Shown here: positions 9,631 through 44,775 of the stretch, piece after piece
How positions within the stretch are numbered: the stretch's first letter is position 1
Layout of the letters: every line of letters begins with the position of its first letter
NCBI GenBank assembly: GCA_022925895.1
Contig: JAKSYS010000442.1
Coordinates: 1-52,299, forward strand
Direction of reading: 5' to 3'
DNA: 52,299 bases
Origin: Fragilaria crotonensis
Taxonomy: Eukaryota; Bacillariophyta; Fragilariophyceae; Fragilariales; Fragilariaceae
Position numbers and translations under genes: made by a program
The notes under the pieces: model-generated
Database searches by the model: none
What the model was told of the DNA's origin: nothing
The model's input: only the letters and a program-made list of their open reading frames with translations

Positions 9631-10616
9631 GGATCCTCAAGGAGTGCTTATGGATGCATCCATCCATCATGTAGGTAATGTGATATGTGATAAACGCTAA
9701 GGCATACTAGTATTCATTTTCGACAAAGTGATCTTCTCTTCAGTGCATTTGCGCTAGTGTGTGTGTTAATATGGGATCAATATGGTACTAGTCAGGGATA
9801 TTGTTAGTACTACCGGTAGTACGAGTTTCTGTGCATACAGCAGAGATTGACGATGCATTTCTACATTGCTAGGAGTAATATCGTAACTGGGAGTGGCGTT
9901 TCTGCATAGCCTCAGCACATGAAATCGTCATCGGCATTTACCAGGAATAATGCGGTACACGCAGGTGGGAGAGGGGTGCATAGTGGTACATGATTTCGCT
10001 ATCCGGACTGCTATGATATCACCTGCGTTCTCCGAAGACAACAGCTCCGGTGACTTGAAAGGAGGGCTCATTGTTAACAGGCAAAGAAGAGAATAATGTC
10101 CTGGCAGTCTTTCATGAAAGCCATTGAGCCGATGAGCAAGTGAGCCCATGAGCCCATGAGCGTATGTCTGCCGTACAAGTACTGGCGAAGTATGAATAAG
10201 CACGCACACGATGAGACAAGGCACGTGAGCATGTCCCAAGTCCCACGATGTGTGCATTGTGCATGGTTCAAACTTGGACGGTTTGCTACTTACTACGTGT
10301 ACGTGGTATTCATACATACCTGGTATGTACTACAACTGACTTGTGTATGAAATACGTCGTGGGAGCCCTACAGCTATATGTTTACACGAGTTTTTTGTAT
10401 CTAACGGTAGTATCTACCGGTGTAACGGTAGACCAGGATCCGATGCTATAGGACATGTATAGTGCTTTCATGTCCCTCGCCTTGCTGCACCAACACCCTC
10501 ACGGAGTGGATGTAGGAACTGAGCTATCGTCATCAAAACCCGATGCCATGCATTCGGAGCTATATAGGCGCATTCTCACCTTTGATGCTTTCGGTAGTGT
10601 CTGGTGAGCGGTTGAC
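9584..10616. other. Intergenic, GTAC-containing; nothing coding seen
   Basis: No supported gene. There is a short tandem repetition of GAGCCCAT near 10140-10160 and scattered GTAC words around 9790-9830 and 10280-10440. The 5' region of the LIPT2 gene must lie in the last few hundred bases. Confidence 0.5.
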
Positions 10617-11681
10617 ATGTTCATGATGCGCCAAGCAGCTGCCGCTCGCCATTCGAATACTGCTATTGCAGTCTGGAGACCTTCCCAACGATTCTTGAGT
10701 GCTAGTATCGAGCATGAATTCGGTGAGGAACCTATAAGCAAAACGACACAATCTACCACCGTCCATTCCTCTCTCTCCTACGGTCCGATTGACTATGCTC
10801 GGGGCTGGGCATGGCAGCAAACACTGTTGCATCAGCGACTCTTGCGTCGTGCAAAACTACTTCAACAGCCACAAGAAAGCGTTGATGATGATCTACAGGA
10901 CGACACAATACTTTTGTTCGAACACCTGCCTGTCTATACGTTGGGACGTGGTGCCGATGAATCTCACATAACAGTCGAAATTCCGGACCGTGATCGTCTT
11001 TCACGGACCTGTCGGCGACAGCGGGGCTCAGGGTCGGCGCGACTATCCATGGACAAGAGTCCGTTATCCTCGACGACCATGACGACTGCCGACTCGGTCC
11101 AACATCTGTCGGAGATGGCAACGCCCGTTATAGCACCAAATGGAGTACCAATCTATCGCATTGATCGAGGTGGTGAAGTAACATTCCATGGTCCTGGACA
11201 ATTAGTCGTTTATCCCTTGCTGGATCTGAAACGCTGTCCCATGCAGCAGGATCTGCATTGGTATCTACGTCAAATCGAACAAGTGATCATCGATACACTG
11301 CACGACGACTATGACATTCCAACCACACGCGATTCTGACCATACCGGAGTTTGGTATCAATCGCCAAACCACAGGAACAACAAGGGTGACAATGGTCGTT
11401 TTGCCAAGGTTGCTGCCGTGGGAGTGTCGGCATCAAGATGGATCACCACGCACGGCTTTGCACTCAATGTTCGACCAACATTGCAGTATTTCGATGCATC
11501 CTACATTGTTCCCTGCGGAATCCATGACAAAGACGTGACAAGTATGGAACAAATCTGGAGAGAAGAAGGTAGGGAAACCGAACTTCCGACAGTCGACCAA
11601 GTGGCCGCGAGTGTCTTGAACAAAATGGAATCTGTTTTTGGAATAACGGTAGAGAAGAATGCAATCATTAAAATACATTAG
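10617..11681 (+). CDS. LIPT2: Octanoyl-[acyl-carrier-protein]:protein N-octanoyltransferase (LipB/LIPT2)
   Basis: 354 residues, single exon. It transfers octanoyl from acyl carrier protein to the lipoyl-domain lysine of the glycine cleavage H protein and 2-oxoacid dehydrogenases, the first step of lipoate synthesis. Family motifs: L-G-R-G near residue 117, R-G-G-E-V-T-F-H-G-P-G-Q-L-V-V-Y-P-L, the catalytic-site lysine K264 in A-K-V-A-A-V-G-V, and the acyl-accepting cysteine C300 in V-P-C-G-I. About 50 N-terminal residues precede the conserved domain and are rich in Arg, Ala and Ser, which suggests an organelle presequence (mitochondrial more likely than plastid, since there is no signal peptide plus F motif). 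A roughly 50-residue Ser/Thr/Arg-rich insert sits between L-G-R-G and R-G-G-E. All catalytic residues are present. Confidence 0.93.
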   Translation: MFMMRQAAAARHSNTAIAVWRPSQRFLSASIEHEFGEEPISKTTQSTTVHSSLSYGPIDYARGWAWQQTLLHQRLLRRAKLLQQPQESVDDDLQDDTILLFEHLPVYTLGRGADESHITVEIPDRDRLSRTCRRQRGSGSARLSMDKSPLSSTTMTTADSVQHLSEMATPVIAPNGVPIYRIDRGGEVTFHGPGQLVVYPLLDLKRCPMQQDLHWYLRQIEQVIIDTLHDDYDIPTTRDSDHTGVWYQSPNHRNNKGDNGRFAKVAAVGVSASRWITTHGFALNVRPTLQYFDASYIVPCGIHDKDVTSMEQIWREEGRETELPTVDQVAASVLNKMESVFGITVEKNAIIKIH

Positions 11682-18328: not shown

Positions 18329-19624
18329 TCATAATAACTCCCTAGCCTCAAATTCATCGCCGTCCTCGACGACCTCCTCATCCATCGATTGAGCACTGCT
18401 GTCAACGTCGGAATCGCCGTCGTCAGATCCACCGGCCGTCAAACCCTGCCTCATATTCATTACTTCCCCCGGTGATGCACGCACAATCAAGCTACCGGCA
18501 TCAACGTGCGTCAACAAATCCATGTATTGTGTCACAAGCAAGACATCCATAACATGCGAAAAATCCTGATTCCATCCCGACGCAGCACTCTCCTTCATTC
18601 CCGCGGCAAGACATTTGCGTTGTTGTGCAGTTCCCATTCCATGCAAATACGCCACTTCCACACCCGCTTCCGCTCGTTTCACTCGAATCACCTTATCTGC
18701 TTCACCACGATGCACCATTGCCTCCTTCCTTCTCCGACATGCTTCCACTTCGTTCATGGCACGCACCACGGACGGCTGTGCGGGTCGTACATTGGTGCAG
18801 AGGGTTTGGACCACATGGTAGCCAAAGTCGTATTGGCTCAGGACGAGGCACAATCGCGTGTGCACCGCGTTTGCAATATCACCACGACGACCACCAAGGA
18901 CGTCATCCAGAGTCATGGCAGGAACTTGGGCGCGGACAACATCAAAGATATAGGATTGGATTTGGATGTGAGGGTAGGTCAATTGATAGTAGGCTAAGTA
19001 CGCCATTTCAGGTATCACCTTGTACTGGACCGAAACTTCAATGTGTACAAAGACATGGTCCTTTGTTTTCGTCTCACAGGCGACGTCAAGTTGTTGAATA
19101 CGAAGCGATATCCGCGATGCTATGGTTGAGTAGGGCCAGCACATCAGGTGCAAACCAGGGCCAAGAAGTAAATCAAATCTTCCGAAGTTCTCAGTTAGTC
19201 CAATCTCTTGAGTACGGACACATTGACAACATAGTCCTCCATGACTGAATAGTGGAATTGACAAATCCTTTGCTGGATTGTGATGGTTCAAAAGATTATG
19301 GTGAATATGGTGGATCAAAGAGTGACCTTGCGCGTCATCGAGGCTTGGAAATTCAGGAATTGGTTCTTGATTTTGCTGCTCGTGTTGAGTCTGTGGAATC
19401 CCAACCACCAAGGGGACTTCATAGTACAGGGATGGTGATACAACCAGATCACGCTCTGGACGATGGTATTGATTCTGGCGCCGTCGTCGTCGATTGTTCG
19501 TTTCCGAGTACCATTCGTCGCGAAACGCATCGGCACCGCTGTCCGCCACATTCTCCGAAAGCAATGGTTCACGCCCAAATTTCGAGGATTGCTTCCTTCT
19601 CATTCGAAGCGGTACCATCTCCAT
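18329..19624 (-). CDS. SPFH/band-7 domain protein (HIR/stomatin-like)
   Basis: 431 residues, uninterrupted. The first 125 residues are Arg/Gln/His-rich and look disordered. A C-C-Q-C-V-R cluster then precedes I-G-L-T-E-N-F-G-R-F-D-L-L-L-G-P-G-L-H, the start of an SPFH domain similar to plant hypersensitive-induced reaction proteins. The domain continues through Q-L-D-V-A-C-E-T-K-T-K-D and V-R-A-Q-V-P-A-M-T-L-D-D-V to a coiled-coil-like segment (V-E-A-C-R-R-R-K-E-A-M) and an Ala-rich end of the core. An acidic tail (D-D-G-D-S-D-V-D-S-S) closes it. SPFH proteins oligomerise on membranes and organise microdomains. There is no clear transmembrane helix, so attachment may be by acylation of the Cys cluster (inference). 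Confidence 0.88.
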   Translation of the reverse strand: MEMVPLRMRRKQSSKFGREPLLSENVADSGADAFRDEWYSETNNRRRRRQNQYHRPERDLVVSPSLYYEVPLVVGIPQTQHEQQNQEPIPEFPSLDDAQGHSLIHHIHHNLLNHHNPAKDLSIPLFSHGGLCCQCVRTQEIGLTENFGRFDLLLGPGLHLMCWPYSTIASRISLRIQQLDVACETKTKDHVFVHIEVSVQYKVIPEMAYLAYYQLTYPHIQIQSYIFDVVRAQVPAMTLDDVLGGRRGDIANAVHTRLCLVLSQYDFGYHVVQTLCTNVRPAQPSVVRAMNEVEACRRRKEAMVHRGEADKVIRVKRAEAGVEVAYLHGMGTAQQRKCLAAGMKESAASGWNQDFSHVMDVLLVTQYMDLLTHVDAGSLIVRASPGEVMNMRQGLTAGGSDDGDSDVDSSAQSMDEEVVEDGDEFEARELL

Positions 19625-19689
19625 CTTGTTAAAGTGCTTGTGGCTTTACTGTGGGTATGGAGTTGGATGGTTGGCTCTTGGTATGCATG

Positions 19690-25241: not shown

Positions 25242-25606
25242 GCATATGATTCGATAAGGGATTTAAGGTTCAACTAAATTTTTAAAGTACCAAGTCTACG
25301 AGCCCCAACGATATGCGGTCTCGGAGTGAAATAAGCCATACTTGTATTTCATTGTTTATCATTGTTGTCGGTGTTCAATGTCCAGTGTCCAGTCCTACAT
25401 GGTTGTCACATCGTTTCGCCGATATGCGAAGCCCTCTGTCACGTTTCAATATATATATATATGTGGAGGGACATGTGCTCCTTGGGCTACTGCAGTGATG
25501 TGACATATGATAGAAGGAGTGAGATTTCCATTCTGGAAAATCTTCCACAACACTCTTGTGCCGACTGCGAACAACTTGAGTAACTTCGGCATCCTTCTAT
25601 CGTTGC
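25242..25606. other. Intergenic upstream of the methyltransferase gene
   Basis: Contains a short TA dinucleotide run at about 25450-25462 and otherwise unremarkable sequence. The promoter of the gene at 25607 should lie here. Confidence 0.5.
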
Positions 25607-26824
25607 ATGCGCCGCTCCAAGCCATATTGCTGGTCGGTTCTCTCCCTTTCAACGGTATTGGGCATTCGACAATCGGCTCCTCCGCGATTTTCTCTCAGTC
25701 GAAGACTCCCATACTGTTCACATACCGCAGTCATGGACCGAGCCGAAGATCTCGACGATGCACCTATTCTCATGATTGAAGGGGATGAATTCTACGTGAA
25801 TCACGACGCAATATGCCGAAGCTTCTACGAACTTGAACAATGGAACAATGGGATATTGCAGCCTCTCAGTCTTGAAGAGGAGTACGACCTACGCAGAGCC
25901 CACAAGACATTTTCTTTGCGTCACAAGATGCGAACCCTGATCTCGACGCAACTCTTGGATCCAACCAACTCCACATCTAAAAATAGCAAGGACGACGACG
26001 AAGCAACGCAAGTGCCTCGCATCTCTGTACTTCCTCACAATGCTCGCGGGATCGTCAACCTTGGTACAGTGCAACGTCGGGTTTGCATTCAAGAAATTGA
26101 TCAAGGTGTCTTCGGATCTGCTGGGACAGGCGCGACCACTTGGGAGTCGTCCATTGCCATGGCCTTGCTCGTATCGTCACAACCCAATCTTCTTAAGGGT
26201 CATGTCCTTGAATTGGGATCGGGGGTCGGGTTGGGAGGCATTCTCACGGGAATGATGGTGATGCCATCGTCCGTATTGTCACTCACTTTGACGGATGGGA
26301 ATGATGAAGTTTTGGAAGCGTGCCGCGACAACTGCCAGCGCGCAAAACTGGACCATCCCAATCTACGCATTCTGCGATTGGATTGGAATGATTTGCCAAA
26401 ACCATCACTGAAGTATGATACAATTCTGGTCAGTGATTGCGCTTACAAGTACCCTGATGTTTTCGCTCTTGCTGCGGCGTGCAAGGATTCACTGCAGGAA
26501 CCAGACGGGAAAGCTCACATTTTTGGCCCCTACAACCGCGGGGGGCTACACGATTTACTTCGTGAATTGAAAGAGCGTCAAGATATGGACGTCGAAGTTA
26601 GCAGTATTGAGATGAGTCGGTACCGACTGCAATCGTCATTCGCTACTGGCAATGCCTGCAGCCGGAACGAAGACGAAGCCATGTATGCATCGCGGCACGT
26701 GGTCAAGTTCCTACACATCACCGCAATGCATAAGAATCGACAGCAAATTGCTATCTCATCTGCATTCATCGAGTATGGATGCTATCGATTAGTGATGTAC
26801 GTAGAAGCCGTGATGCAATCGTGA
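25607..26824 (+). CDS. METTL21-type protein lysine methyltransferase (Methyltransf_16)
   Basis: 405 residues, single exon. SAM-dependent methyltransferase fold: T-G-A-T-T-W-E-S-S-I-A-M-A before motif I, motif I V-L-E-L-G-S-G-V-G-L-G (residues 200-210), L-T-D-G-N-D-E-V-L after it, and post-motif II V-S-D-C-A-Y-K-Y, the place where METTL21 enzymes carry D/E-x-x-Y. Family members trimethylate lysines in chaperones and translation factors; the substrate cannot be told here. The first 42 residues (R-R-S-K-P...R-F-S-L-S-R-R-L) look like an organelle presequence. An internal ATG at 25733 (M-D-R-A-E-D) would give a cytosolic form of 363 residues, so the start is uncertain. Confidence 0.85.
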   Translation: MRRSKPYCWSVLSLSTVLGIRQSAPPRFSLSRRLPYCSHTAVMDRAEDLDDAPILMIEGDEFYVNHDAICRSFYELEQWNNGILQPLSLEEEYDLRRAHKTFSLRHKMRTLISTQLLDPTNSTSKNSKDDDEATQVPRISVLPHNARGIVNLGTVQRRVCIQEIDQGVFGSAGTGATTWESSIAMALLVSSQPNLLKGHVLELGSGVGLGGILTGMMVMPSSVLSLTLTDGNDEVLEACRDNCQRAKLDHPNLRILRLDWNDLPKPSLKYDTILVSDCAYKYPDVFALAAACKDSLQEPDGKAHIFGPYNRGGLHDLLRELKERQDMDVEVSSIEMSRYRLQSSFATGNACSRNEDEAMYASRHVVKFLHITAMHKNRQQIAISSAFIEYGCYRLVMYVEAVMQS

Positions 26825-28080: not shown

Positions 28081-31000
28081 ATGACTGTACGTTACATTCA
28101 AGGCAAGACGAAGGGCCCTGGTGGCTCATATCCGTCAAAGCAATCGAAGCATGGTTCCGACGTGGAATCGCATACCGAGTTTTCTGTTCTCGCAGCCGAC
28201 GACGCTGCGAGCATTGTGTCGCAGCTAGAGAATCCGAGATCCTTTTTACGTGGTGGAACGGATGATGATAAAATCAAGTTGGTCGAAGAACTCTTTCACA
28301 AGGGAGCAGCGATTGGAGTCGGTGTCTGGGTCATTTTGATGATTATGGTGTACTTGTTCTCTCCTTATGAGCTTTACGAGGAGCCTTCAGGATTCGAGCA
28401 GCTCTGCCATATTGTTGGAGGCACTCTTCTGATCGTCTCGAATGGTGCCAGACTTCTTCCCTTGCTCATGAAAGATAAGGGCTACAAGATTCTGAAGAGT
28501 GGCTTCATTGTTGGGTCATTAGCTGTGCAGTTGGTGGCGTTGGCATCTAACTACATCATGGCCTTCAGACCAACACCAGTTATGTACGATGAAATTAGTG
28601 GGCTACGCTTTCATCTCGTTCGATGGGCAGAGTGGATTCCCCTGGCCTTTCTCATGGCCTTTCTCACCATTAACGTCGACGCACCTTTCCGAGGGCCCAC
28701 TCCTAAGGTTGACTTTGTATTCCCTACCATGATGGCACTGAGTACCTCCGCCGGATTGCTCTTCCCACTTTGCCCCGATGAATACACATGGTGGGGTGTC
28801 ATGGGCACCTCTTGGTCATTGTTCAGTATGATCTACGTTGTAACCTATCAGAAGGGTGTTGACTACTTGGAATTGAAGGGTGAAATCAAGGCCGGCGCCT
28901 CCAGGTCCAAAGCAAATGCTCAACAGGCTGAGCGGCTTGATCTTACCAAGTCCAGTTTCTCGTTGTGCATTGCCATTAGTGTCACCTGGACTTTCCTTGC
29001 TCTCATGTTCACCTTTTTCAGTGTTGTGACCAAGCTTGCCAGGAAGGATAGTTGGCTCAGCAACCCATCTATCCCAGTGGCCTTGACCTGCACCTTCGAA
29101 GTTATGTCCAAGGTATGGTACCTTGGGGCCCTGTTTGAAGCATACGGCAAGGTCTTTGACGAACAGGTCAGGGGTCATCGCCGACTTGAGGAATTGCGAA
29201 GCTTCATGTCCGCGGTGTGGGCATCATCCTCTGACGTGATCGTGTTCTGCTCGAAGAACAACGATATCGTCAGCGCTCGATCAGTCCATCGTTTCTCAAA
29301 ATCCTTGGAAGTTCAGCCGACACTCTAGGCTTTGACATCACAAACGAAGTCTCACTTGTCCTTGAGATCGATCAAAGTCAGGATTTGTTCTCCGTTGTCG
29401 CCATGGATCTTGATAGACCGGTGATGAGAAGTGATCTTTCTAGTGTGTCCTATGACTTGAATACCAGATCGTTCAGGATCTCAAGGCGGATGATCTTAGT
29501 GCTCCTGAAGTTAACCTTGCACGCATGGCGAAGCTTGCGATTGACGCTGTCACTCTAGCGCCGGCGTTACTAGAAAGGATTAATCCAACTAAGTTCGTCG
29601 CTGAAGTCGGCAGGAAAGGAGATCTCTCGAGCGAGATGTCTTGCGAGGTTAACATTTCGCTATTGGAAGGAAGGTCATGCGTCTTGACTCTGCGTGATAT
29701 CTCCGAGCGTCTTCATCGCTTCCAAATTGAGAAGAAGCTTGTCAAGGAAGTCACCTCCAGAAAGAAGGACGAGGAAGCCAACAGATTCACTCGCCATGAG
29801 GTGAAGAATGCTCTCTTGGCTGCGATGGGGATCCTGGACCACCTGAAGGAGTTGATGCAGCGCAGTAATGTGTTACCGAAGAGAAACACGGACGAAAAGA
29901 GTATGTTTCTCCTTTCCGACAATGCCCCTATGGTATTCATGGACATGGGTGGCGACGACGACACCACTTCTCCTCAGACTAAAGAAGTGGAAGAAGCGTT
30001 CAACGAGCTGGATACTACTCTCAAGGATGTTATGGACACAATTTTGGACGAAGCTATGGCGCGTGAGGTAAGAATTGGTACCGGCGATGATCCATTGACT
30101 ATTCTCGATGCTTTTTCTAATTTTCCTTGTTTTCCTCTAGATTATTTACGGCGATTACACACCGCGCAAGGAGCGCATGAATGTTCCTGATGTCCTCGAC
30201 TCTCTCCGCCGACGCGCCTCTCGCAGATTTCCGATGGATATCGTGCCTGCCGGTCCTCTTTTCCCCGTCCTTGAAATGGATCGTCAGTTGCTACGATACA
30301 TTTACCGAAATGCCGTATCGAATGCTTGCAAGTATGGAAAGAAGGATGGCGTTGTCAGTACTCGCGTTACGTACGAACGGAATTTGCAGGTCCTGACGAT
30401 GCAAGTCATCAACCTGCCAGGTGTAGGTCACGATAAGCTTTGCCAGCTCTCAGCCTCAGAGGCAGCGAAAGTGTTTGAGCAGGATACTCAGCTGAAGGCT
30501 ACGCAAGAGGGCACCGGAAGAGAGGCCGAATCGATTCGCAATGAATCATCTGGAAACGGTGCCTGGATCATGAAGAAGGTGCGCTTGCTTGTTTTGTTGT
30601 TGTTGTACTTTTGTTTTCGCCCCTTGGTGACGCTAACAATTTTGCTTCGACAGTGCGCCGAATCAATGAATGGAAAAGTTGATATCAAATTCGAGAAGAC
30701 GAGAACTGTTTTACTTTCTCGTGTGCTGTCACCCCAGTTTACATGCCAGAACGAAGCATGAGGATCTCAACCCCAAGTGTATCCAACGAGGAGTTCGCCA
30801 TCCCAGAAGGTACTTGGGGTGTTGTGATTGACGACTCGAGGATCCAGCGTAAAGTGTTGGGAACGTTCATGCAGTTGATTGGTATTGACAAGTCAAGGCA
30901 AGTGGGTTGAACTCCTCGAACGTTTGTGTAGCTGCCTCTACTAATACTTTCTTTCCATTTCACGCAGACAAGTTATCCTTGGGGCCACGATGGAAGAGAT

Positions 31001-31637
31001 TCACGGCTTTGGCGATGCTGTTCAAAAGCTTTTGAGGCAAAATCCTCGTGACAAGTTCCTGTTAATCGTGGATGAGAATCTGGATATTGTCGATGGCGGA
31101 ACTCGTCACGAAACGGTATCCGGTTCTATAGCGACACAGAACCTTTTGTCTCAACTCGACAATAACACCAAATCGCGTGTGTTGGCATTGATTCGCAGTG
31201 CAAACGATTCGGACATGGACATTCAAGTGTATAGAAAGAGAGCCCACGGGCATTTGCGCAAGGAGCCTCTCAAAAAGACTGGCAATCTTGAGCTAATCAA
31301 GCCTTGGTGGATCGAGCGGTTTGCCTCCAACCATGACCAGGACATGGACGATTCCAGTGGAAACAACACACTTGATTTTGCTGTCGCGGATGATGTTCGC
31401 GAGTCACTAGGAGTGATCAACGCGTTGTCGGCAGTGGCGAGTGAGGCTCGATGGCAGGCAATTCGCGAGAAACTGCATGCTCTCAAGGGTGACTTGAAAG
31501 CAACGATTCCTATGGGAATCATTGGGAAGGTCGTAACCCAGATCGATCAACTCATGGCGAGTGATAGGCTACCACGAGATTTCAGCAACAAATGGATCCG
31601 ACTTCAGGGTGAAATAGAGACAATTCTCGCTACCTAG
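28081..31637 (+). CDS. Rhodopsin-like hybrid histidine kinase, copy 1 (rhodopsin-PAS-HK-REC-HPt)
   Basis: Start at 28081 (M-T-V-R-Y-I-Q-G). One extra N-terminal helix (residues 77-95) is followed by seven helices that match microbial rhodopsin landmarks: helix C R181-W-A-E184-W185 (bacteriorhodopsin R82-Y-A-D85-W86), W-W before helix E, and helix G E340-V-M-S-K344, where the lysine codon at 29110 is in the retinal Schiff-base position. A PAS-like region ends L-T-L-R-D-I-S-E-R. The H-box R-H-E-V-K-N has His at 29795. The N-box is N-A-V-S-N-A-C-K-Y-G and the G2-like box G-N-G-A-W-I-M-K-K. The receiver has I-D-D-S-R and phospho-Asp at 31071. HPt His is in L-H-A-L-K-G (31476). Introns: 30068-30140, 30579-30654, 30898-30967. 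Single-base frame breaks near 29280, 29484 and 30710 mean it is either a recent pseudogene or carries sequence errors. The ATPase G1 box is diverged (I-N-L-P-G-V-G). Confidence 0.82.
30068..30140 (+). other. Intron 1 of rhodopsin kinase copy 1
   Basis: 73 bp, GTAAGA ... CTCTAG, phase 0, between A-R-E and I-I-Y-G. Copy 2 has an intron at the same codon (about 35170-35248, GTAAGT ... CTACAG). Confidence 0.88.
30579..30654 (+). other. Intron 2 of rhodopsin kinase copy 1
   Basis: 76 bp, GTGCGC ... CGACAG with a CTAAC branch-site-like element 24 bases before the end. It splits the G2 box between I-M-K-K and C-A-E-S-M-N-G. The same position is interrupted in copy 2 (about 35683-35759). Confidence 0.88.
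30898..30967 (+). other. Intron 3 of rhodopsin kinase copy 1, GC-AG type
   Basis: 70 bp starting GCAAGT and ending ACGCAG. Removing it joins S-R to Q-V-I-L-G exactly as in copy 2, where the equivalent intron (36021-36114) starts GTACGT. The donor here is therefore a non-canonical GC, with the rest of the donor matching the consensus well. Confidence 0.82.
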
Positions 31638-33248
31638 TGTTCATGGAATTTTGAAAGATGCGGGTTTGAATTAAAATAGGAAGGCGCTGTGCATGCATGA
31701 GCAGTGTTTGTACTACCTCGTGCATGTTATCCCAGTATTTAATCAGTGCGGCATTGTCATTAGGCGAGTTGTTGAATCGGGCCATTATTTGCTGCGGAAG
31801 TCGGATCGCACCTGTAACTTACTATAGGAACTTGGAAACCCTGTGTAGTGTATAGATTGTATGTTATGTTTGAGTATAAAATAGTATATATGTAATTCAC
31901 AATGCAAAATTGGGTTCCACGTAAACTCTCTATAGACAAACACCAAAACGAAGATCGTCAAAGCTAGGTGGTCGACGCTCATAGCGATAGAGCTTTGAGC
32001 TAGCTGATTAAGTTACGCTTGCAATAGCTCCTCGACCCGCAATCAGCCGAGATGCACTCATCTACCTGACATACCAATGTGAATTCAACAGAATCGTCAA
32101 TCAGACGAGCAGCGGCACTTGCTTGAAAGTACCTCGACTATCCCACTTCACAATCATCTAACTCAAGAGATTATTCTGGTATTGTTTCTTCTGGTTCTTT
32201 GGAAATTCTTTTTGGACAGCGTATCTGTCATGTGGCCATGAGTAACTCCTTGGTTGTCTTTCCCCCTTGCTTGACCAATGCTTGAAATGCAAGTTCGAAC
32301 CCTTACTCATGAATTTGTCTCCAACTACCACCCTCAACGTGGTCAACGTTAATCGGATGCAGTGTGGATCTAAAGGAGGAAATAGTTAAACACGTGGAAG
32401 GGGGGATTTCCTTTATGTTGCCCTCTCTTCTCTCTGGGTCTACTCTCGCTACTATGCACTCCGGAGTACTACCGGTGCACGGTGTAGCTACTCTCTCTCT
32501 GTTGAGATAAAGAGGGTGTTGGCAAATCTTATCCAGCCTAAAAAACGCAAGAGAGAATTGAGAGGGGGTCCCGTTTCAAAATTCCAGTGTACAAGTACTG
32601 TAGTGCTGGGCTCGGGGATGGCGTGTTCTTTATTAGGACTCAGAGTACTTGTACATTTACTCCTTCACAAATGTGCGGGTAGACACTATGACTCCATGAC
32701 CCAACACTTCCTGGTCGCAGATTCGCCAGAACGGCTGAGCTACGGTACATTTCGGTATGCTACTGAGAGAGTGTCATACTCTGAGTGCTGTGCAGCACTA
32801 CGGCCTATATTTCGATACAAATGTATTCGGATTAATTGTTTTGTCGAAATTGTTCCGAATTGTATGGTCATCGGTTCCCGTAAATGTTCGTGCGCATCAA
32901 CAATCAGCTTGCGACGTGGCAAGGAGGGGCAGTGCCATTAAAATCTCGTAGAACGCAGTTAATAGGACATTTTTAATCGGGATTTATCCAGTGTCGAAAT
33001 GGAAAGTTGTGTGATTATGCAGAATGTGATATGACAGGACGTCATCAGAGCATGTTTCATGGGCAGTGGATATCGATTAAATGTAAAATGTGGTCATCTG
33101 CGTGGACTTCGTTGCGTGTGCAGAAGTTGCTGATACGGGCGGGCTGGTTGAATTTTGATCTTCGTTCAACATGCAGAAACCTTTCACAACAAGCTGGAAA
33201 AGTTTTGGGCAACTGATCGAGCCGAAGTTATTCAGCGTCGCGGTGCCC
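31638..33248. other. Spacer between the two rhodopsin kinase genes
   Basis: 1.6 kb without a supported gene. Contains AT-rich sequence around 31850-31900 and a few GTAC words at 32470 and 32595-32660. The stretch immediately upstream of 33249 is open but has no domain content. The promoter of copy 2 should be here. Confidence 0.5.
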
Positions 33249-36200
33249 ATGTCTTACAGTCAGCGATCGCAGAGCATGTCGAAGGTCCACAGATCACCCC
33301 ATATGCCGAAGCGAGAATCTCACTCCAAGAATGAATCGGAGACGACGAACCCGAGGTACAAAGAGTTCACATTTATGGCCCCTGACGATGCTGCGAGTCT
33401 TGTCTCCCGTCTCGAGAATCCCCGTTCCTTTCTCAATGCAGCGGCCGATACTGACAGGGTTAAACTTGTTGAGAAACTCTTCCACAAAGGTGCCGCGATT
33501 GCTGGATGGCCTTTCGATTCTTACGTTGAACCAGCTGGCCGACCAGCTCTGTCATGCGGTGTTGGTTGTCGATGCTGCCCATGATTCTGATCAGAATCCT
33601 CAGCGGCTTCATCGTTGGCTCGCTTTCGTTCAGTTGGTTGCGTCCTACATAATGGCCTTCAGACCTACCGTCATCTACGATGAAGTTAGCGGGCTGCACT
33701 TTCACATGGTTCGATGGGCTGAATTCACTGCCCTCGCCTTCCTCATGGCCTTTCTCACGGTAAACGTCGATGCGCCATTCAAGGGTCTTGGCTCGCATTC
33801 ACCGAAGGTGAACTTTGTTTTCCCGTCCATGATGGCTCTGAGCACCTCCGCTGGAATGATATTCCCATTTTGCCCCAACGAATACTTATGGTGGACTGTC
33901 ATGGCCATCTCTTGGTCTCTTTTCTTTACTATCTATGTTGTAACCTTCCAAAAGGTGGTCGACTACTTGGAATTGAAAGGGGAACTCAAGGCCGGCACCG
34001 CCAAGGCCAAAGCCAACGCTCAGCAAGCCGAGCGCCTTGAAATAACCAAGTCCAGCTTCAATTTATGCCTATCCATCAGCATATCATGGACTATGTTGGC
34101 TCTTATCTTCACATTTCTTGGTGTCGTCACCAAGCTCGCCAGAAAGGATAGTTGGGTCAGTAATCCGCATCTCCTCGTCGCAGTGACGTGCGTCTTCGAA
34201 GTCATATCCAAGATCTGGTACCTCGGCGCTCTCTTCGAAGCCTACCGCAAGGTCTTTGACGAGCAGGTCAGGGGGCGTCGCAGGCTGGAAGAACTTCGCA
34301 GCTTCATGTCCGCGGTGTGGCTGTCATCGTCAGATGTCATTGTTTTCTGCTCAAAGAACGGTGGTATTGTAAACGCCAAGGTCAGCCCAGCCTTCATCAA
34401 TACACTCGGAGGTTCTGCTGAGGCCCTCGGCTTAGACGCTGATGATCCGGCATCATTGATGCTTGAGATTGACGCCAGTCAAGATATGTTTTCAGTTAGT
34501 TGCATGGACCTCGATCAAGCCATCATACAAAGCGACATTTCCAGTGTTAATACCGACAGTCTGAACACGAGGACTTACCGGATCTCCAAGGCAGAGGACA
34601 TCAACGCCCCTGAAGTCAATCTCGCACGCATGGCGAAGCTTGCTCTTGACGCTGTTACTCTGGCTCCAACGTTGCTGGACAGTAGGATCAACCCCACCAA
34701 GTTCGTCGCTGAAGCGGGCAGGAAAGGGTTCGCTGCGGCTGAAATGTCTTGCGAGGTTCACATTTCACTTTTGGAAAGCAGGTCGTGCGTCTTGACTCTG
34801 CGCGATATCTCCGAACGTCTTCATCGCTTTCAAGTGGAGAAAAAGCTCGTTGAGGAAGTTACTTCCAGAAAAAAGGATGAGGAAGCCAATCGATTCACTC
34901 GCCATGAGGTGAAGAATGCTCTCCTGGCTGCCATGGGAATCCTTGACCACTTGAGGGATCTGATGCAGCGCAGTAATGTGTTACCCAAGAGAAACACGGA
35001 GGGTTTGGTTGTCGTCTCCGAAACTGCTTCGATGTCATTCTTGGACATCGGTGGAGATGACGACAGTGTGTCTCCTCAGACCAAGGAAGTCGAAGCTACG
35101 TTCAACGAGCTTGACGCCACTCTTAAGGACGTTATGGACACTATTTTGGACGAAGCGATGGCTCGCGAGGTAAGTCATTTGATGTTTTGCATTCGGGATT
35201 GCGCCGCCCTCCGACGGGTATCTCAATAAACACTATCTGTTCCTACAGATTATTTATGGGCATTATACCCCAAGGAAGGAACGCATCAACGTCCCTGATG
35301 TTCTCGCCTCGCTTCGGAGAGGAGCATCGCGCAGATTTCCATTGGATGTGGTTCCTTCTGGTCCTTTGTTCCCTGTCCTTGACATGGATCGTCAATTGCT
35401 GCGGTACATCTACCGAAATGCGATATCGAATGCCTGCAAGTTCGGTCGAAAAGATGGCGTTGTCAATACTCGCGTCAACTACGATAGTCACTTGCAACTG
35501 CTGACGATGCAAATCATTAACTTACCTGGAGTTGGCCATGAGAAGCTCTGCAAGCTTTCTGCCGCTGAAGCGGAAAAGATCTTTGAAAAGAACACTAAAC
35601 TCAAGGCCACGCAAGAAAGCGAAACGGATGGAGCCGCGTCCAATGATGACTCGACCGGCAATGGCGCGTGGATCATGAAGAAGGTACGAATGCGCTGCCT
35701 CGGGTTCACATCCTTATTTATCCGGTGTGACGATGACTTACAATTGTTTCTTTGTATCAGTGCGCGGAGGCCATGAACGGACGGCTGGATATCAAGTTTG
35801 AGAAGACGAGAACGGTATTTTCGTTCTCATGTGCATGTTCTCCAGTGTTTATGCCAGAACGGCAAACACTGCATCAACGGCCTGTCGGCTCCGTCAACAT
35901 GTCAACCTCCGAAGAATTTGTCATTCCCGATGGCACGTGGGGCGTTGTGATTGACGACTCAAGAATCCAAAGGAAGGTTTTGGGCACATTCATGCAGCTT
36001 ATTGGAATTGATAGAGCTAGGTACGTGCGGTGATCACTAATACATGTCTTCCTCATGTTTTGAAATGATGCGACTCATATGGTGTTTCATTCCCTCTGTT
36101 GCGAAAAACTACAGGCAAGTCGTCCTTGGAGCTTCGAAGGACGAGATTCATGGCTTTGGCAAGGAGGTTCAAAGGCTGCTGAAGGAAAATCCGAATGATA

Positions 36201-36780
36201 AATTCATTTTGATCGTCGATGAGAATCTTGACATTGTGGATGGAGGAACTCGTCACGAAACGGTATCTGGTTCCATTTCGGTTCAAAACCTGCTGTCAGA
36301 ACTTGACCAAAATTCGAAGTCTCGTGTCTTGGCGTTGATTCGCAGTGCCAACGACTCGGACATGGACATTCAGGTGTACAAGAAGAGAGCTCATGGACAT
36401 TTGCGAAAGGAACCGCTCCAAAAGACTGGTAATCTCGAATTGATCAAGCCATGGTGGATCGAACGTTTTGGGGTGGAAGTCCCATGATGGATGATTCTAG
36501 TTTCAACAATTCGTTGGAATTCGGAGTGGCCGATGACGTTCGCGAATCGCTTAGCGTTATCAGCGCCCTCGCCGTCGTGGCGAGCGATGCTCGTTGGCAG
36601 GCCATTCGTGAGAAATTGCACGGCCTCAAGGGCGATTTAAAGGCAACTATGCCAATGGCCACTGTGGGCTCGATCGTTGCCGAGCTGGATCGACTCATGG
36701 GCCAAGAAAAGGTACCGCGGGATTTCAGCAACAAGTGGCTCCGTCTCGAAAGTGAGATAGAGTGCATTCTTGCCGTGTGA
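33249..36780 (+). CDS. Rhodopsin-like hybrid histidine kinase, copy 2 (rhodopsin-PAS-HK-REC-HPt)
   Basis: Tandem paralogue of the gene at 28081, with the same domain order and intron positions. Start at 33249 (M-S-Y-S-Q-R). The region for the extra N-terminal helix and helix A (about 33500-33620) has suffered deletion and a frame change, so those helices are missing or garbled. Helices B-G are intact: helix C R-W-A-E-F (33712-33726; the Trp after Glu is Phe here), W-W, and helix G E-V-I-S-K with the lysine codon at 34210. H-box His is at 34903, receiver Asp at 36218, HPt His in L-H-G-L-K-G at 36619. Introns lie at about 35170-35248, 35683-35759 and 36021-36114. Another single-base slip sits at a GGGG run near 36472. 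From helix B onward it is better preserved than copy 1. Confidence 0.82.
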
Positions 36781-42624: not shown

Positions 42625-43827
42625 TTAGTTGAGAACATTGACACAGTTCAAGTCCTCTGCTGCCTGGACCAAACGTGCGGCCATGGCCTCTTCACCCGCA
42701 CGAAGGGCCATGCGAGGGTCGTAGTACTTCTTGTTAGGCTTCTCTGGACCATCGGGGTTGCCGATCTGGCCCTGGAGGTAGTCGTGGTACTTGGCTTCAT
42801 AAGCGCGAATGCCGTCCCAGAATGCCCACTGGGTGTCGGTATCAATGTTCATCTTGACGACACCGGCCTCGATGGCGTACTGAATATCTTCTCTGGAGGA
42901 ACCCGATCCACCGTGGAAGACGAAGAGCATGGGCTTGGTGTCGTCGGTGCCGAGCTTCTCTTGGATGTACTTCTGGGTGTTGTGGAGGATTTCTGGCTTC
43001 AATTCCACGTTACCAGGGGCGTAAACTCCGTGGACATTTCCGAAAGACGCAGCGCAAGTAAATGCGGCGTTTGGAACCTGGGAAAGCTGCTCGTAGGAGT
43101 ACCAGACTTCCTCGGGTTGGGTGTAGAGACGGGATGAGTCAACATCGGAGTTGTCGACACCATCTTCCTCACCTCCGGTGACACCGAGTTCGAACTCGAG
43201 GAGGCAATCAATCTTGGCCATGCGCTCAAGGTACTTCTTGCAGATGGCAATGTTCTCTTCGAGTGGTTCCTCGGACAAGTCAAGCATGTGGGAGGAGAAA
43301 AGAGGCTCACCGAATTGTGCGAAGTGTTCCTCGTTGGCTTCAATGAGGCCATCGAACCATTGCAACCAAGACTTTTGGCAGTGATCAGTGTGGAGGATCA
43401 CAGGAACGCCGTAAAGGGCAGCAACCTCACGGACGTGCTTGGCTCCAGCGATGCACCCAGCAATGGAAGCAACATCATCAGTGTTGTCGACAGTCTTACC
43501 GGCGATGAACTGTCCACCTCCCTTGGAGAAGGTGACCATGATTGGTCCACCGTACTTGGCAGCGGCCTCCATACAGGCATTGATGGAGTTGGTTCCAACA
43601 ATGTTGACTCCAGGGATGGCGAACTTCTCCTTCTTGGCGTGTTGAAGGAGATCGACAAGTGCCTTTCCAGTCACAACACCAGGCTTAACCGATGCTGGGA
43701 GCTTGGTAAAGGTAACTTCCTTGACGGCGCTCATGTCAAGAGCCGTGGTGCGAACACCGTTGATGCTAGCACCTGGGGCGAACGCACCAGTTGAAGCGAT
43801 GAGAAGAGCGGCGATGCAGAACTTCAT
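42625..43827 (-). CDS. FBA: Class II fructose-1,6-bisphosphate aldolase, plastid-targeted
   Basis: 400 residues from the ATG at 43827, uninterrupted. It cleaves fructose-1,6-bisphosphate, or condenses DHAP and glyceraldehyde-3-phosphate, in the plastid Calvin cycle/glycolysis. The N-terminus is a signal peptide ending in T-G-A-F-A-P-G, the ASAFAP-type motif that directs proteins into complex plastids (Phe right after the cleavage site). Class II markers: H-T-D-H-C at residues 146-150 (zinc and catalytic region), G-N-V-H-G-V-Y, F-H-G-G-S-G-S-S and N-I-D-T-D-T-Q. A longer frame open upstream to 43956 lacks targeting sense, so I chose 43827. Codon use is more biased than in neighbours, fitting high expression. 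Confidence 0.96.
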   Translation of the reverse strand: MKFCIAALLIASTGAFAPGASINGVRTTALDMSAVKEVTFTKLPASVKPGVVTGKALVDLLQHAKKEKFAIPGVNIVGTNSINACMEAAAKYGGPIMVTFSKGGGQFIAGKTVDNTDDVASIAGCIAGAKHVREVAALYGVPVILHTDHCQKSWLQWFDGLIEANEEHFAQFGEPLFSSHMLDLSEEPLEENIAICKKYLERMAKIDCLLEFELGVTGGEEDGVDNSDVDSSRLYTQPEEVWYSYEQLSQVPNAAFTCAASFGNVHGVYAPGNVELKPEILHNTQKYIQEKLGTDDTKPMLFVFHGGSGSSREDIQYAIEAGVVKMNIDTDTQWAFWDGIRAYEAKYHDYLQGQIGNPDGPEKPNKKYYDPRMALRAGEEAMAARLVQAAEDLNCVNVLN

Positions 43828-44775
43828 GGTGTAAGTTACAAGACAGTTTAACAAATGCGATGAAATTATGGATGGTGTTGTCGCCACAGATCGTGCGCAA
43901 GTGACATACTCGAGTACGTTGTTTTTCACCAAGATCTGGAATCTGCGGAACCCCATTGTCGTACGTCACCCTCGACCCTCGTATGTATTGAACACGCCTG
44001 AGTACGTTCACGTACGAGTCTTGCGGCTATGCCCTAGTTTGTCGTGTATCGTAGAGATTCTTAAAATTTGAATGCCAGGTGCCAGGTGCAACAGTGCTGG
44101 AGAATGAGCAGTAGATCGCAGACTCGCAATAAGCAGTACAAGTACATACGTACTCGAGTACAAGGTGAAAAAGAAGCATGCCAGTATTACTTGTACTAGT
44201 ACTGGTGTAGGACAGAAACACAGTGCGCCGATTCACCGGATACACCGCTCCGTACTCGGTACTGAATGTGATACTGTAGTACAGTTTAGTACTCCGAGTA
44301 GTGCGAAATACTGTAAGTACGAGTACAGTGTACTACCGGTAGTACCTCGTACCTTGCGTCGCGATTTGGTCGGAGACAATCTGACCGTACAGCGGTCGGA
44401 CCACACTGTCAGGGTTGAGGTTCCTGTATTTGGCAAAGTGCGGGGCACGGAACGTTCCTTCCAAGTACACAGAAACCCATACAAAGATCAAGCGAAGAAC
44501 ACGTTGCACTGCTACGCCATTCTTGAGCCATTATGGCATCATTGCCCGTTACTCGTCAGCCGGCAGTTGGGCGTGACGTAGGCTGGGTAGGATCGTACTG
44601 GGAACATCGACGGAAAAGAACAGCGTCACCCAGTTTGCGAACAAGCCCTGCCAGTGGCAGGCCATCTGGACAACGGGATTCGCTGGCCTTCGAACACGCA
44701 GTGCAAGTCGCAAACATATTGAACATATATTGAACATTTTGTACACACACATCTTAAAATTACGAATCTTCAACC
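43828..44775. promoter_or_regulatory. Divergent intergenic region between two plastid-protein genes
   Basis: 950 bp separating the divergently transcribed aldolase (minus) and the small plastid protein (plus). Contains a dense GTAC tract (about 44140-44350, for example GTACTACCGGTAGTACC). No recognised promoter motif can be asserted. It must contain both promoters. Confidence 0.5.

Follow-up and report, generated by a model that had tools for sequence, protein, structure and literature searches.

Green algal two-component cyclase opsins are described, in the available part of PMC6284317, as eight-helix proteins with both ends in the cytosol. In one of these, Cr2c-Cyclop1, light causes the eight-helix opsin to inhibit the kinase joined to it, and a receiver drives the cyclase (PMC6284317). 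Three enzyme-rhodopsin families and the eighth helix, TM0, are named in the excerpted text of PMC12558739. Among diatoms, the excerpted text of PMC10627834 describes FcR1, a xanthorhodopsin. Here we report on a tandem pair of genes in a 52,299-nucleotide stretch of the diatom Fragilaria crotonensis (GenBank assembly GCA_022925895.1, contig JAKSYS010000442.1), hereafter the window. We give a probability of about 0.5 to the reading that each gene encodes a membrane-bound hybrid histidine kinase in which a very divergent rhodopsin-type sensor feeds a His-Asp-His relay.

As in the green algal HKR1, Cr2c-Cyclop1 and Vc2c-Cyclop1, each copy would combine an eight-helix opsin-like domain, a histidine kinase and a receiver in one protein. 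The algal histidine kinase rhodopsins end in a guanylyl cyclase, with no PAS or HPt domain noted in that part of PMC6284317, whereas the diatom pair carries a PAS-like region and finishes in an HPt-like domain; this comparison is one of descriptions rather than of sequences. FcR1, unlike the pair, belongs to the Pfam Bac_rhodopsin family and pumps protons. A histidine kinase rhodopsin from a diatom is not described in the portions available of PMC12558739, PMC10627834, PMC6944256, PMC6798134, PMC5795050, PMC8818676 or PMC6284317. Nor was a description found in the open-access literature, which leaves most subscription papers and preprints outside and does not establish absence. The PF01036 model gave no match at E<=10 in this F. 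crotonensis genome, which is weak evidence, as control genomes gave none either.

The two homologous genes are arranged head to tail, both on the plus strand, at 28081-31637 (copy 1) and about 33249-36780 (copy 2), about 5.1 kb apart, and are 69-84% identical domain by domain. A second contig, C296, carries the same locus, with 98.2% identity to the window over 5.9 kb and 95.9% across the next 3.8 kb, and behaves like the other haplotype. The membrane domain, the PAS-DHp part, the CA exon and the receiver-HPt exon were used as queries against the genome (62.1 Mb in 881 contigs, the window being C384). The locus was found solely on the window contig and C296, besides two weak CA matches (E 0.17 and 0.52). 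Synonymous divergence (dS) between the copies is at least 1.2 in the four stretches where it could be computed and is saturated in the HPt region. The ratio of non-synonymous to synonymous divergence (dN/dS) is 0.115 for helices C-G with the linker, 0.118 for PAS-DHp, 0.063 for the CA exon and 0.063 for the exon 4 portion of the receiver; with dS set to 3, it stays below about 0.067 for the HPt region. The gene pair is thus real, old and under selection, both copies having long been maintained as proteins under purifying selection (dN/dS about 0.06-0.12 in five stretches). An earlier note on this DNA, made from its letters, had proposed a tandem pair whose duplication was kept by selection. 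Both proposals are borne out, the second by values of 0.063-0.118 at a dS of 1.2 or more. Its treatment of each gene as readable as a single protein does not hold in the window, as set out below.

The membrane domain compared with known rhodopsins

The rhodopsin landmarks that the earlier note had named in the N-terminus are present, and its K344 is correctly numbered for copy 1 from the ATG at 28081. A WW pair in helix E and W303 in helix F stand alongside the helix C and helix G motifs (Table 1). E340 and K344 are retained in four of four copies and R181 and E184 in all three that cover them, all from one genome. Type-1 rhodopsins such as bacteriorhodopsin and channelrhodopsin-2 likewise have R-x-x-[DE] within helix C and [DE]-x-x-x-K within helix G, and their helix E opens with two aromatic residues. 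The spacing from helix C to helix E is nearly equal, at 53 residues between E184 and W237 and 52 between D85 and W137 of bacteriorhodopsin, for which the generally accepted residue roles are used throughout.

Several features fit the predicted eight-helix topology. A low-confidence AlphaFold model of residues 1-399 has eight long helices in 61-362, and a hydropathy scan called six of the eight, missing E and G. With the C-terminus in the cytosol, five inside stretches hold 20 Lys and Arg residues against 5 in four outside stretches (loop limits set by hand), as the positive-inside rule would have it. A Foldseek search with the first model, later discarded, brought up chiefly designed helical proteins, and no match reached E<=0.001.

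Copy 1 was aligned pairwise with 12 rhodopsins, consisting of the 11 members of a profile (nine plasmid rhodopsins, 9 of 10 matches with H7 left out, plus bacteriorhodopsin and green proteorhodopsin) and channelrhodopsin-2; C1C2 and HcKCR1 stood outside this set. Under six scoring schemes, R181/E184 fell on R82/D85 in 6-10 of the 12 alignments, E340 on D212 in 3-9, K344 on K216 in 3-10 and W237 on W137 in 2-6. Averaged over the 12, copy 1 reached a z of 1.23, whereas the highest value among 32 Escherichia coli open reading frames (ORFs) with at least six hydrophobic segments was 0.98. A second calibration, on 48 pieces of control ORFs with HcKCR1 as positive control, gave 1.17 with BLOSUM62 and 1.50 with BLOSUM45 (control maxima 1.00 and 0.98; reversed copy 1 sequence -0.02 and 0.15). 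Single z values over 14 rhodopsins ranged from -1.4 to 2.8, with 0.34 for C1C2 and 0.80 for HcKCR1. Alignment with the 11-member profile using hhalign scored 20.3 (E 0.043), higher than all 100 reversed and rotated sequences (top 13.1). Of 347 control membrane windows, none contained R..[DE]W and seven contained [DE]...K; the latter count is indicative only, because helix G of the query lies outside its called membrane windows and two further windows of the query carry the motif as well.

A substantial body of results weighs against a rhodopsin. At E<=10 neither Pfam nor the PDB yielded a rhodopsin match, and structure prediction gave an uninformative predicted local distance difference test score (45.2 from one sequence, 42.8 from two). 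In the register used there are no counterparts of Tyr185, Pro186 and Trp189, leaving the aromatic cage incomplete, and W303 fell on W182 in just 1-3 of the 12 alignments under the six schemes. Helices C-G of copy 2 alone scored 0.77 and 0.76, inside the control range. The hhalign score lies within that of 200 local shuffles (mean 16.1, standard deviation 3.1, top 26.9). A seven-block chain test was positive for 11 of 11 known rhodopsins and negative for the query (-55.4, the controls averaging -43.6, with 128 of 300 shuffles equally good), although query blocks C, E and G stood in the expected register. Both motif counts are indicative only, since the landmarks were picked after the sequence had been read. 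Six established type-1 rhodopsins, some of them distant, reached mean z values of 6-14 in the test that gave copy 1 1.2-1.5, so the domain is not an ordinary type-1 member. It further differs from type-1 rhodopsins in its extra TM0, its long E-F loop and the lack of an Asp96 counterpart.

The negative family-model and PDB searches, the negative profile and block tests, the z values far below those of known type-1 rhodopsins and the incomplete cage would all suit a different sensor. On this account the eight helices of a diatom hybrid kinase respond to a ligand, redox state, voltage or membrane state, and the landmarks are coincidences found by a motif-aware reader. We regard this as a serious competitor, though on the doubtful side. 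It leaves aside that the copy 1 pairwise signal exceeds that of every one of the 48 control pieces, that the landmarks fall in the expected helices at the expected C-to-E spacing, and that these measures place heliorhodopsins just as far from type-1 rhodopsins. Four heliorhodopsins gave z values of -0.03 to 1.19 to the type-1 set, and their profile score of 22.9 (E 0.016) was near the 20.3 of the membrane domain. In the PDB at E<=1, heliorhodopsins were the sole matches to a heliorhodopsin query. A lack of similarity in sequence is therefore no ground for ruling out a rhodopsin. Heliorhodopsins also share R-W-x-E in helix C with the pair, but carry Ser before the lysine where the diatom domain has Glu. 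Membership of the heliorhodopsins was itself considered and rejected, on mean z values of 0.39 and 0.13 to the four and an hhalign segment out of register.

The rhodopsin reading of the membrane domain is accordingly plausible but not proven. What stands of the earlier claim of a microbial rhodopsin is its motifs, the topology and a weak pairwise signal; a family-model match is lacking, and the profile and block tests went the other way. We advance only tentatively the wider proposal that diatoms have a rhodopsin family standing roughly as far from the type-1 rhodopsins as heliorhodopsins do, invisible to rhodopsin models and serving as the sensor of a complete one-protein His-Asp-His phosphorelay.

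Kinase, receiver and probable HPt regions

Both genes contain an ATPase domain. Pfam HATPase_c exceeded its cut-off of 26.4 bits in both spliced copies, at 30.3 bits in copy 1 and, barely, at 26.5 bits in copy 2; the CA exons by themselves fell below it (20.1 and 15.8 bits). The same search, whose HMMER filters discard most weak matches, gave no PAS, HisKA, Response_reg or Hpt match at E<=10 in the copies, and none to a rhodopsin model. A hybrid kinase with a receiver, real though divergent, is supported by the predicted active-site residues, namely an acid pair, an Asp in DENLDIVDG (DWNMPNMDG in CheY), a Ser and Lys-Glu-Pro. The receiver alignment spans most of the length of CheY and of same-genome receivers, with an hhalign E of 0.0086 in one comparison. 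Its mean pairwise z was 2.4 over 15 receivers (individual values -1.8 to 5.5), and a profile built from that set scored weakly (1.1 and 0.7 bits). This set comprised CheY, BasR, DcuR and 12 same-genome stretches, 14 having been found and two short ones dropped, with none at threshold from locus L027. An HPt domain in the same chain is probable, with pairwise z values of 2.1 and 2.8 to ArcB and 0.5 and -0.4 to YPD1. The PAS-like domain is placed by its position and its RDISER ending.

Bacterial hybrid kinases of the tripartite ArcB type unite a kinase, a receiver and an HPt domain within a single polypeptide, as proposed here, and the diatom pair differs from them in its membrane sensor, its spliced eukaryotic gene and its divergent domains. 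The H-box, N-box, G2 box and L-H-x-L-K-G named by the earlier note were all seen, the last two as a G2-like GNGAW and as LHALKG. Its full phosphorelay in one chain survives as far as the HATPase_c domain, the H-box, the receiver and the probable HPt domain are concerned, and falls short at the G1 box. There the usual consensus is D-x-G-x-G (kinase boxes being named here in the customary way), and both copies have NLPGVG, with no D-x-G-x-[GA] within residues 700-840. The missing G1 aspartate also counts against the reading of a working relay and leaves kinase activity not assured. It would fit a protein that has lost the usual autophosphorylation, a pseudokinase or phosphatase whose membrane part may still sense. 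This we consider unlikely, given the retained H-box, N-box and GNGAW, the CA exon dN/dS and the HATPase_c matches over cut-off in both copies.

Reading frames of the two copies

Neither copy is one uninterrupted ORF in the window, copy 1 having three single-base losses and copy 2 multiple breaks. Relative to C296, copy 1 of the window is one base short at each of 29278, 29481 and 30708, and C296 is one base short at window position 28648. All four losses shorten runs of identical bases (GG>G, CC>C, T5>T4 and TTT>TT), and wherever copy 1 breaks in one contig the other reads through. Because all lie in same-base runs, they look like uncorrected long-read errors, which is not proof. The 1113-residue copy 1 protein used here is accordingly a composite of window codons 1-399 joined to C296 exons, and is found in no single contig.

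Copy 2 is more heavily affected. In its TM0-B stretch, C296 is without 271 bases, and a further C296 loss lies at window position 35810. In both contigs the receiver and HPt regions are in different frames, adjoining a TTTTGGGG run. Given the TM0-B damage, the C296 losses and this frame shift, a complete protein from copy 2 can only be inferred. Decay of one or both copies, with the pair not working as described, would account for copy 1 being broken in each contig and for the copy 2 damage and pre-HPt break common to both, but is improbable when the copy 1 losses are shortened runs each bridged by the other contig and dN/dS is 0.06-0.12 in all five stretches.

Table 1. Positions of the two genes and their predicted parts in the window
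Feature	Position	Strand	Details
Copy 1 gene	28081..31637	+	Exons 28081-30067, 30141-30578, 30654-30897, 30968-31637; splice sites predicted from sequence and frame
Copy 1 membrane domain of eight helices, about residues 60-372	28258..29196	+	Open in window; R181, E184, W237-W238, W303, E340, K344
Copy 1 helix C, R181-W-A-E184	28621..28632	+	Putative counterparts of bacteriorhodopsin R82 and D85
Copy 1 helix G, E340-V-M-S-K344	29098..29112	+	Putative counterparts of D212 and retinal lysine K216; within best hhalign segment
Copy 1 linker and PAS-like region	29197..29730	+	Position and motif (ends RDISER); no Pfam match
Copy 1 H-box histidine H573	29795..29797	+	Motif RFTRHEVKN
Copy 1 CA (HATPase_c), exons 2 and 3	30141..30760	+	HATPase_c 30.3 bits at residues 710-832; N-box; G1 NLPGVG; G2 GNGAW
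Copy 1 receiver	30816..31310	+	D869-D870; predicted phospho-acceptor D926 (31071-31073); S968; K989
Copy 1 probable HPt	31344..31634	+	H1061 (31476-31478) in LHALKG; motif, ArcB alignment, selection; no Pfam match
Copy 2 gene	33249..36780	+	Exons 33249-35169, 35249-35683, 35761-36020, 36115-36780; predicted splice sites
Copy 2 damaged TM0-B stretch	33500..33640	+	Three frame breaks and several gaps against copy 1
Copy 2 helices C-G and linker	33655..34374	+	Intact; RWAEF, LWW, EVISK retained; dN/dS 0.115
Copy 2 frame break, receiver to HPt	36473..36478	+	Common to window and C296

The third intron of copy 1 (window 30898-30967) is apparently of the GC-AG type and lacks a GT start; copy 2 has GT at the corresponding site.

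A possible light-controlled phosphorelay and its genomic setting

If the rhodopsin reading is right, the N-terminal eight helices would be TM0 plus A-G of a rhodopsin-type photoreceptor, with retinal on K344 of helix G and two glutamates, E184 of helix C and E340 of helix G, serving as counter-ions. A proton donor of the Asp96 kind is absent from helix C, which would suit a sensor rather than a pump. On illumination the helices and the long, charged loop between E and F would shift, and the signal, passing through the helical linker and the PAS-like domain, would alter autophosphorylation of H573. Phosphate would then travel from H573 to D926 in the receiver and on to H1061 in the HPt domain; as the chain ends in an HPt-like domain, it would go next to another receiver protein, a separate response regulator. 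By analogy with the green algal proteins, light may switch the kinase off, although the sign is a guess. Retinal binding, light control, the PAS domain, HPt function and the target of the relay are thus elements that we infer.

In the same genome 15 receiver matches exceed the cut-off, and some of these lie in hybrid kinases. Three receivers, L015 (contig C1), L016 (C38) and L017 (C81), lie in open frames of 283-372 residues with no obvious kinase in frame and are possible relay outlets. There are also nine carotenoid oxygenase match rows over cut-off, some being pieces of one gene, and such enzymes could supply retinal. Two near full-length carotenoid oxygenase matches stand in tandem at C452:25003-29357.

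Pfam searches were run on 10 of the 27 window ORFs of 200 amino acids or more, and none of these 10 gave a hint of a role in retinal metabolism or signalling. Among the neighbours there were matches to the models for lipoyl ligase (10608-11681, plus strand), Band 7 (18329-19645, minus), lysine methyltransferase (25580-26824, plus) and class II fructose-bisphosphate aldolase (42625-43965, minus). Scans of viral contigs and prokaryotic genome contigs with two to six short peptide patterns, which may miss divergent relatives, confirmed no relative. No phage relative was found at E<=1, and a proteorhodopsin scan of the viral contigs gave no further rhodopsins. Silicon transporters mark the genome as that of a diatom, with 18 of 19 match rows over the Pfam cut-off. 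Three consecutive matches share one 1456-residue open frame at C97:29749-33762, suggesting a fused triple transporter, and a similar pair occurs at C771:21664-24330.

Were the rhodopsin reading to hold, diatoms would possess a retinal-based light-signalling enzyme, a new kind of light-controlled enzyme in that group, and surveys based on PF01036 would have missed such rhodopsins. A branch roughly as deep as the heliorhodopsins would be added to the rhodopsin superfamily, and a kinase whose output ends in an HPt domain would offer a new starting point for light-controlled phosphorelays.

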